NCBI GenBank assembly: GCA_029266425.1
Contig: JAQSWY010000010.1
Location: 1 to 64,000, forward strand
Direction of reading: 5' to 3'
Origin: Xanthobacteraceae bacterium
GTDB taxonomy: Bacteria > Pseudomonadota > Alphaproteobacteria > Rhizobiales > Xanthobacteraceae
Length of the DNA: 64,000 nucleotides
A program made the position numbers and the translations under genes. Under the pieces are notes generated by a model. The model saw only the letters and a list, made by a program, of their open reading frames with translations. It was not told the DNA's origin and ran no database searches. Each line of letters starts with the position of its first letter. Position 1 is the stretch's first letter. Below are positions 39,987-41,290 of the stretch, piece by piece.

Positions 39987-41081
39987 TCACCCCTTCTTCT
40001 TCTTCACCTTCCCCCGATTGGTGAAGCGCGCATTGCCGAGCCCGGTGCCGACCGTGAGCACCCCCCAGCGCTCGACATCCTGCATGAACGACGCCTGGCT
40101 CAGCCCCTGCACCACGGCGTCATTGTGCAGGATGACGGCAGTGTCGGCGCCACCTATGCGCGGGATCGCCTTGCGCAGCGCCGCCGGCAGATTGAAGCGC
40201 CGGCTCTCCCAGTTGCCCGGCAGGTTCTGGGCGCCCGTCTCGATTCCGCCATCCTCGGAAATCTCTCCCGGGCAGCCTATGCCGATGAAAGGCGCGAGCT
40301 TCAGATCCTGCTTCTCGGCATCGTGGATCAGGTCCTCCAGCATCGCCACCAGCCCGTCGATCGCCGCTTCCCGATCGAGTTCCTCGTCATCGGCGTGCCG
40401 CCACAGTTCGAACCGCAACACCGAAGCCTTGGAAAGATCCTCGCGCTTCCCGAGGTTCAGCTCGACGATGCCCGCCCGCATATTGGTGCCGCCAATATCG
40501 ACGGCGAGGATGCTGTCATGGCCGGAGAACAACCAGCTCGGCGCCAGATGTGCCGCGCCGATAAGCCCGGCCTCGTTCGGCTCATGGCGGATCGGCTGCA
40601 GCTCGATGTCGATCTCGCCCTCGCGCAGCAGCAACTCGGCGCGGGCGAGGGCAATTGCGGTGAAGCGGTTGGCGCTCATGCCGCCGCCCACGACGACGCG
40701 CTGCGTGTCGCGCCATTCTTTAGTGCGCAGCAGACGCCGCAGCACCTTCGCCAGATCCTGCGCATAGTCCTCGGCCGCGCTCAGCACCATGGCCTGGTCG
40801 AACGGCTCGCCGTTCTTGAGGAGACGGTCGAGCTGCTGCTTCGACACCTTGCCGGTCATCGGCTCGCCGAATGGATCCTTGCGCCGCTGCGCCGCGAGCG
40901 CCCGCCAATGGTCCAGCGCCTCGAAGAAGGCATCTCGCCGGGCACGATCGCCGACGAAGCCCTCTTCGTCGCGCAATTGGCTGTTATAGCCGTCGACGGT
41001 CACCGAGGGCAGCAGCGCGGCGCCATGGCCTGCTATGGCGGGACCGGGGATAGCCGTCGCCGCCGCGTTGTTCTTCGCCAT
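39987..41081 (-). CDS. ROK/ASKHA-type sugar-kinase-like protein with circularly permuted motif order
   Basis: 364 residues. The ROK motifs are clear but in unusual order. Motifs normally found at the C-terminus come first: RVVVGGGMSANRF at 128-140 and EAGLIGAAHLA at 170-180. Those normally at the N-terminus follow: ILAVDIGGTNMRAGIVE (phosphate 1, 191-207), IGIGCPGE (266-273), HNDAVVQG with the catalytic-base-like Asp321, and GTGLGNARF (345-353) almost at the end. I see no CXCGXXGCXE zinc motif. A sugar-phosphorylating role is inferred only from motifs. It lies between ftsH and glmM on the opposite strand. Confidence 0.82.
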   Translation of the reverse strand: MAKNNAAATAIPGPAIAGHGAALLPSVTVDGYNSQLRDEEGFVGDRARRDAFFEALDHWRALAAQRRKDPFGEPMTGKVSKQQLDRLLKNGEPFDQAMVLSAAEDYAQDLAKVLRRLLRTKEWRDTQRVVVGGGMSANRFTAIALARAELLLREGEIDIELQPIRHEPNEAGLIGAAHLAPSWLFSGHDSILAVDIGGTNMRAGIVELNLGKREDLSKASVLRFELWRHADDEELDREAAIDGLVAMLEDLIHDAEKQDLKLAPFIGIGCPGEISEDGGIETGAQNLPGNWESRRFNLPAALRKAIPRIGGADTAVILHNDAVVQGLSQASFMQDVERWGVLTVGTGLGNARFTNRGKVKKKKG

Positions 41082-41290
41082 ATGTAGGGGTACCTTCGCC
41101 GTAGATGCACGGACAACGGCGCCGTAGTGCGAATGGTTTCACAGTGTATGCGATAGCTGATCCCTGTTTCGGCGAAAGGTTGCCGTTAGGGAACAATTGG
41201 TAATATCTGCTCACCATATGTGAACGCGGACGTTGCACGATCCGTCTAGAAGAAGAATCGGGTGGACGCGCCGGACAGAGGGCTACGATC

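Follow-up and report, generated by a model that had tools for sequence, protein, structure and literature searches.

A conserved ROK-family protein with circularly permuted halves, a candidate stress-induced sugar kinase

Is a ROK-like protein whose conserved motifs occur in reversed order a true circular permutation of the kinase fold, and what would such a protein do? The question is raised by a minus-strand open reading frame in the stretch of 64,000 nucleotides analysed here (the window), which starts with ATG and is open throughout its 364 codons. A sequence-only reading had suggested a circular permutation of the ASKHA fold, having noticed that motifs normally found late in ROK proteins precede those normally found early. 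All motifs were located at the residues given in that reading, and the single open frame agrees with its statement that no broken or rearranged gene pair is involved. The ROK zinc motif CxCGxxGCxE, which that reading had looked for without finding it, was indeed not present in the protein. Natural circular permutation of large two-domain enzymes is unusual. The gene and its parts are the following.

39987..41081, minus strand: gene of the circularly permuted ROK-type protein, 364 amino acids, with its stop codon at the lower coordinates
40518..41042, minus strand: N-terminal half, residues 14-188, equivalent to the C-terminal half of an ordinary ROK protein; holds H19, D45, VVVGGG and EAGLIGAA
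40008..40517, minus strand: C-terminal half, residues 189-358, equivalent to the N-terminal half of an ordinary ROK protein, from DIGGTN to GTGLGNARFTNR
41025..41027, minus strand: codon of His19, invariant in 21 of 21 homologues, aligned with the His of the ROK ExGH motif in one MAFFT alignment
40947..40949, minus strand: codon of Asp45 (in GFVGD), invariant in 21 of 21 homologues
40680..40697, minus strand: VVVGGG, residues 129-134, the late glycine-rich strand of ROK proteins
40551..40574, minus strand: EAGLIGAA, residues 170-177, the C-terminal helix motif of ROK proteins
40482..40499, minus strand: DIGGTN, residues 195-200, the phosphate-1 and metal motif
40263..40277, minus strand: GCPGE, residues 269-273, counterpart of the ROK GxPG motif
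40119..40124, minus strand: Asn320-Asp321 (HND), with the predicted catalytic base
40035..40049, minus strand: GTGLG, residues 345-349, the phosphate-2 motif
39990..40013, minus strand: GKVKKKKG, the short charged tail at the new C-terminus

The reversed order was visible in searches with family profiles. Of the 294 positions in the Pfam ROK profile (PF00480), 2-141 matched residues 192-355 (E 2.3e-9; 37.7 bits, the cut-off being 22.9), and of the 288 in NanK, an NCBIfam ManNAc kinase profile, 209-286 matched residues 102-180 (E 3.9e-5, with a score far under the cut-off of that model), thus the late part of the profile precedes the early part. The PF00480 score was over the curated cut-off also in all four other homologues scanned. 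When the window's own genome was searched with PF00480, four other ROK matches were listed and the window gene was not among them, which we take as a loss in the loose first pass of the search.

The genome containing the window is an assembly of 222 contigs with 7.5% contamination, and the gene might be an annotation or assembly artefact made of two scrambled ROK fragments. The distribution of homologues leaves practically no chance for this, and refutes it by genome, locus and plasmid counts alike. Matches were present in 48 other genomes of relatives (one of them a mere remnant), they were collinear in 63 of 65 genome loci, and in 203 plasmid records at least 80% of the query was covered. 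The search for homologues with the same motif order, proposed together with the sequence-only reading, thus yielded many, in several genera.

A match was found in 49 of the 101 genomes of relatives, and in 48 it covered most of the protein (in G001 as two pieces in one open frame). The match in G021 was limited to residues 303-358 and contained an internal stop. The 65 loci collected from genome contigs, among them loci of Ancylobacter, Bradyrhizobium, a Microvirga MAG and Acidovorax, included 63 in which the match began at residue 17 or earlier and reached at least residue 356; the two fragments were L094, at a contig end, and L095. In a sample of the phylum 53 of 398 genomes had a match at E 0.001. 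The matches were near full length in 22 of these (E below 1e-80; 24 places, two of them with one in-frame stop), and in the other 31 consisted of pieces starting at residue 177 or later, mostly 190-355, a pattern as a normal-order ROK protein would give. Matching plasmid records numbered 206, with 111 from Rhizobium, 79 from Sinorhizobium and 9 from Shinella; several of them are titled complete sequences. Many bacteria of soil and root nodules have kept the permutation. Sinorhizobium meliloti (on pSymB) and Rhizobium leguminosarum carry the permuted gene, which, where annotated, is usually called simply 'ROK family protein'.

Proteins could be extracted from 91 of 99 loci (82 distinct sequences). 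L094 to L099 yielded none, and L086 and L087, which had no accepted start, were added by hand to the alignment and to the promoter counts described below. The order GGG, DxGG(T/S)N, ND, GTG was found in all 21 aligned homologues, whose mean column identity was 59%, and in all 91 extracted proteins (copies included). Three further observations were made in the course of these searches. In Ancylobacter moscoviensis (L095:5990-6178) the gene is broken, with only residues 324-358 and the tail left, behind an unrelated region which from our own reading of its translation is autotransporter-like. G295 and G312 each have two near full-length permuted copies. A segment of a Bradyrhizobium barranii plasmid (NZ_CP121645.1, 362161-362472), lying under a gene annotated as response regulator, resembles residues 245-358 of the C-terminal half (40% identity, E 1e-9).

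To compare the permuted and the normal order, a profile of the 21 homologues was aligned by hhalign with a profile of 37 ROK proteins of normal order, obtained from 41 loci after four (L096, L129, L130 and L155) had been dropped at extraction. In the native order the second half aligned with ROK columns 4-149 (score 100.6) and the first half with columns 197-299 (score 56.6). Swapping the halves back produced one alignment of 288 columns over 4-299 (P 99.2, score 139.7). With the columns of the N-terminal half shuffled or reversed P was 0.1 and 0.3, respectively, and profiles cut at two wrong points still aligned as two pieces. ROK columns 150-196, the zone of the zinc motif, were aligned solely in the swapped-back run, and poorly. 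Single-sequence scores hardly changed after swapping: there was a slight gain with Pfam (39.0 as compared to 37.7 bits) and none with phmmer against the PDB, thus the strong effect is confined to the profile-profile comparison.

Structure prediction and topology comparison, also proposed earlier, placed each half on its ROK counterpart. The AlphaFold2 model of the whole protein, built from the 21-sequence alignment, had a mean pLDDT of 80.1 and a pTM of 0.80. VIA-align superimposed the C-terminal half (187-356) on residues 405-554 of the human ManNAc kinase 2yhw (Z 12.4, 147 aligned residues, rmsd 2.2), and the same human ManNAc kinase was at the top of the Foldseek results. The N-terminal half, when folded alone, gave a weaker model (pLDDT 68.9). 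Foldseek found no match for it at E 0.001; the best had an E of 5.5e-3, and the first six matches were all ROK proteins. With VIA-align the best match of this half was to residues 141-313 of 3vgk (Z 8.9, 140 aligned, rmsd 3.8), a Z little higher than the best values of 7 to 8 that are typical of this method without a true match. The next three were sugar kinases, covered from 109-144 to 273-293 with Z of 7.7-8.3, and on 2yhw (552-709) Z was just 5.4. Because of this background, the assignment of the N-terminal half leans equally on the sequence profiles and on the structure. The two halves together cover adjoining parts of one ROK fold, strongly for the C-terminal and more weakly for the N-terminal half, and were not found to be unrelated domains.

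Domains I and II of ASKHA proteins have a common fold, and the permuted order might be only apparent if two such look-alike RNase-H-like domains had been fused. Some actin and pantothenate-kinase chains did align sequentially over residues 27-337 of the model with Z of about 9, and the resemblance of the N-terminal half to ROK structures is modest. The position of the break points to the opposite. In the model strand 27-33 opens the chain and strands 338-343 and 350-355 close it, which places the break within domain II rather than at the boundary of the two ASKHA domains; the C-terminal hairpin formed by the latter two strands would have to complete the sheet of the N-terminal half. Moreover, in the profile comparison each half is matched to its proper ROK counterpart, one continuous alignment results from swapping back, and the best structures for the N-terminal half are ROK-type sugar kinases covered from about 110-145 onward. 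We therefore regard a fusion of look-alike domains as very unlikely.

The circular permutation suggested from the sequence is thus backed by profile-profile comparison with controls, by two structure searches and by conservation in many genera. That suggestion had placed the new termini after the GTGLG strand. The opening of the chain in this region was supported, but the exact site was not: the cut lies one strand later, in the loop leading to the ExGH position, and in the multiple alignment of the swapped-back sequences the break fell between NARFTNR and the H19 region. We assign a probability of about 0.8 to a permuted ROK fold with kinase-type chemistry.

Is the active site consistent with catalysis? 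In the excerpts of PMC10031466 available for PsNagK, D6 is the metal ligand, D105 the catalytic base and T10 and T132 are phosphate ligands, whereas the sugar is bound by S78, N104, D105, E154, H157 and D187. The same excerpts report that changing D6 or D105 abolished activity and that a Glu to Gln mutant of the ExGH motif had a substantially reduced rate. D195, N320, D321 and T346 of the permuted protein, which by motif correspond to PsNagK D6, N104, D105 and T132, were invariant in 21 of 21 homologues. At T199, the motif counterpart of T10, there was Thr in 18 and Ser in 3 of the 21. The position of the ExGH Glu (E154) was non-acidic in 20 of 21 homologues and Asp in one, and the zinc motif CxCG was absent from all 21, the window protein included. 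The invariant H19 fell on the ExGH His (H157) in one alignment, in which the local alignment was weak, and D45 of GFVGD may replace the last of the acidic sugar ligands, which was lost with the zinc motif.

Loss of the structural zinc site together with the ExGH Glu suggests that the sugar pocket was rebuilt; phosphoryl transfer was probably retained and the sugar pocket altered. The missing acidic counterpart of the ExGH Glu could mean an unusual substrate, or a non-catalytic relative. Many ROK proteins are regulators, and the permuted fold might serve, without catalysis, as a sugar- or nucleotide-sensing or a scaffold protein. Such a role would agree with the simultaneous lack of the ExGH Glu and the zinc cysteines, and with the lack of a consistent metabolic operon among the loci. 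It is unlikely, because the strict invariance of D195, N320, D321 and T346 in all 21 homologues would be needless without catalysis, and Pfam listed no DNA-binding domain for the window protein. The permuted protein is likely to have kinase activity; a glucose-like substrate is possible, though less likely than not.

The permuted protein shares motifs and half-folds with the ROK sugar kinases (PF00480; PsNagK, the kinase domain of human GNE, 2yhw, and the Streptomyces griseus glucokinase 3vgk), including the catalytic Asp, the metal Asp and the phosphate Thr. It differs from them in its reversed halves and in lacking the zinc motif and the ExGH Glu. It exceeds the reference ROK protein used in hhalign (302 residues) by about 60 residues, and even after swapping back its identity to any of the 37 normal-order ROK proteins was at best 23.5%. 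As neither the usual order nor the zinc motif was found, it should be regarded as a homologue, but a non-canonical member, of the ROK kinases. The best sequence relative of solved structure after swapping back was the polyphosphate/ATP glucomannokinase 1woq (E 0.059, not significant). Two normal-order ROK proteins of the window's genome, L097 (1225-2328, minus strand) and L099, which we take to be polyphosphate-glucokinase-like, lack the zinc cysteines as the permuted protein does but, unlike it, still have ExxH where ExGH is expected; like 1woq they have the normal order and are shorter. Each of these two genes adjoins a similar gene, which is by our own reading a glycoside hydrolase. An origin from L097/L099-type proteins was considered and rejected, as these did not group with the permuted family in a tree constructed, without support values, from 11 of the 21 swapped-back homologues and the 37 normal ROK proteins. 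The permuted family stood alone on a long branch, thus the tree identifies no ancestor.

The region upstream of the gene contains a sequence resembling the promoters of EcfG sigma factors.

41115..41140, minus strand: EcfG-like promoter, GAAAC-N17-CGTT, whose -35 box starts 59 bases before the ATG

According to the accessible part of PMC3892343, the motif of R. etli EcfG1 is GGAAC-N16-CGTT. The window copy is a variant of this box, not the strict form, and the relaxed motif occurs twice in the 64-kb window, once at the permuted gene. Upstream regions of the homologues were searched for three forms of the motif in a set of 84 non-identical sequences of related species, which cannot count as independent. 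The strict form, GGAAC-N16/17-CGTT, was found in 24 regions as compared to none on the opposite strand and 0.15 in shuffled sequences. The relaxed form, G[GA]AAC, was present in 54 regions (3 on the opposite strand, 0.65 in shuffles) and the loosest, G[GAC]AA[CT], in 75 (4 and 1.55, respectively). The relaxed forms were chosen after the sequences had been seen and the species are related, therefore the strict count and further plasmid loci are fairer tests. The strict form was found in seven of nine further loci on rhizobial and related plasmids; two of these nine, one being the S. meliloti 1021 copy, share 99.5% identity. No form, the loosest included, was detected at the two Shinella loci L162 and L166 or at a tenth locus, L159 of Methylobacterium. 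The nine of the 84 regions without even the loosest form were those of all four beta-type loci (L085-L088) and of L044, L047, L068, L077 and L089; absence from all four beta-type loci is expected of a motif recognized by an alphaproteobacterial sigma factor. GCAAC and GAAAC variants were seen in Bradyrhizobium, and GAAAC in the clade of the window. From the promoter motif, induction of the permuted gene by stress appears quite probable.

The location of the gene between ftsH and glmM, whose identities were both confirmed, had been taken in the sequence-only reading as a hint of amino-sugar or envelope metabolism. This was not supported. The setting was limited to the window, L031 and L032, that is 3 of 64 loci, and the promoter, together with the neighbours found elsewhere, points to the general stress response. 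That the protein is a kinase of amino-sugar or cell-envelope metabolism is quite improbable. The location itself would suit such a kinase, and NCBIfam ManNAc kinase models did match weakly, one of them end to end once the halves were swapped back. However, the top NCBIfam models were glucokinase and polyphosphate-glucose phosphotransferase, all far under their cut-offs, and the permuted gene, being convergent to ftsH and divergent from glmM, is co-transcribed with neither.

By our own reading of the translations, the neighbours differ between clades: rplU-rpmA-obgE lie on one side in most Bradyrhizobium, polyol genes adjoin in several other Ancylobacter, and an aldehyde dehydrogenase gene is near some beta loci. 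As the neighbours in the 64 loci vary by clade and no operon function can be read from them, genome context was rejected as a guide to function. In four of eight annotated plasmid loci the divergent neighbour was otsB, encoding trehalose-6-phosphate phosphatase; among the 64 genome loci, whose neighbours were judged by reading translations, none of this kind was noticed.

L158:7023-7781, L162:5005-5817, L164:5022-5801 and L166:4995-5807: divergent otsB neighbours, in Rhizobium, Shinella and a plasmid labelled Roseateles

The divergent neighbour was a peptidase of the osmoprotectant NAGGN system in S. meliloti, a ferritin-like gene on the Bradyrhizobium plasmid and a hypothetical protein gene in Sinorhizobium sp. 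B11. In Phyllobacterium a co-directed aldolase gene lies upstream of the permuted gene. The available sections of PMC8092242 state that otsA and otsB of B. diazoefficiens are under EcfG control and that glucose 6-phosphate is a substrate of OtsA. A link of the permuted protein to the trehalose pathway is tentative, with somewhat less than even odds. Replacement of the standard glucokinase was also considered. The Pfam family Glk matched in 73 of the 101 genomes of relatives and in 44 of the 49 with a permuted match (it was absent from G045, G053, G054, G056 and G079). There was no anticorrelation, and the permuted protein is thus not a simple replacement of Glk.

Our best reading is a putative, probably stress-induced, permuted ROK kinase that would act in osmoprotectant sugar metabolism. 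A short linker, LAPSWLFSGHD or nearly so, would join the old N- and C-termini, and the new opening would lie in the loop that connects the strand following GTGLG with the ExGH position. The permuted protein should keep the two-domain ASKHA clamp fold, with Mg-ATP bound via DIGGT and GTG and with Asp321 as the base activating a sugar hydroxyl. The EcfG-like promoter and, in some clades, the otsB-type neighbours point to a role in stress and in the metabolism of osmoprotectant sugars of the trehalose type, for example in the supply of hexose 6-phosphate under stress.

The new ends of the chain are often charged. In 82 of the 91 extracted homologues (copies included) the chain continues for 10 or more residues beyond the last strand, more than 40% of them K, R, D or E; the tail of the window protein has 8 residues only. 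In Acidovorax-type proteins a long stretch rich in K, D and E is N-terminal instead, and both termini of some Ancylobacter proteins carry charged stretches. The new termini should be adjacent, and we infer that both tails would leave the protein at one spot near the sugar site. The permutation itself might then be functional, the mobile, strongly charged tails at the opened loop, C-terminal in most alphaproteobacterial copies, gating the rebuilt pocket or binding a charged partner, in a stress-switched osmoprotectant kinase with a substrate outside the usual ROK range. This is a speculative and rather unlikely extension. The partner could be polyphosphate, acting as phosphate donor, or another anion made under stress.

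How does this compare with known systems? In the parts of the text at hand, PMC2213659 documents a segment swap between ADP-dependent glucokinase and ribokinase-like kinases, with equivalent segments in different order. That enzyme has a ribokinase-like fold, not an ASKHA fold, as described in the accessible part of PMC1079889, and its swap is local, whereas the permutation of the ROK protein involves the whole chain. The same part of PMC1079889 states in general terms that circular permutation may connect the cores of kinases in one fold group, and a permuted ROK protein is not named there. The motif upstream of the permuted gene is of the same type as that of the EcfG/RpoE2 regulon, which includes trehalose genes (PMC3892343 and PMC8092242, in the sections available); the words 'ROK' and 'glucokinase' are absent from the main texts of both papers. 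In the excerpts of PMC1976428 ('circular permutation' and 'ROK family') and PMC7701253 ('circularly permuted' and 'ROK') the terms are unconnected, and those of PMC9611204 deal with ROK-family regulators only. Our searches of the open-access literature found no description of a permuted ROK or ASKHA kinase, or of its enzyme activity.

Among proteins with this textbook enzyme fold the one described here is unusual, and it stands for a class of putative sugar kinases visible to family profiles by halves only. It offers a good case for asking why the ends of a protein moved. As the permuted form is a conserved family present in well-studied symbionts, the purpose of the permutation is open to ordinary genetics and enzymology.
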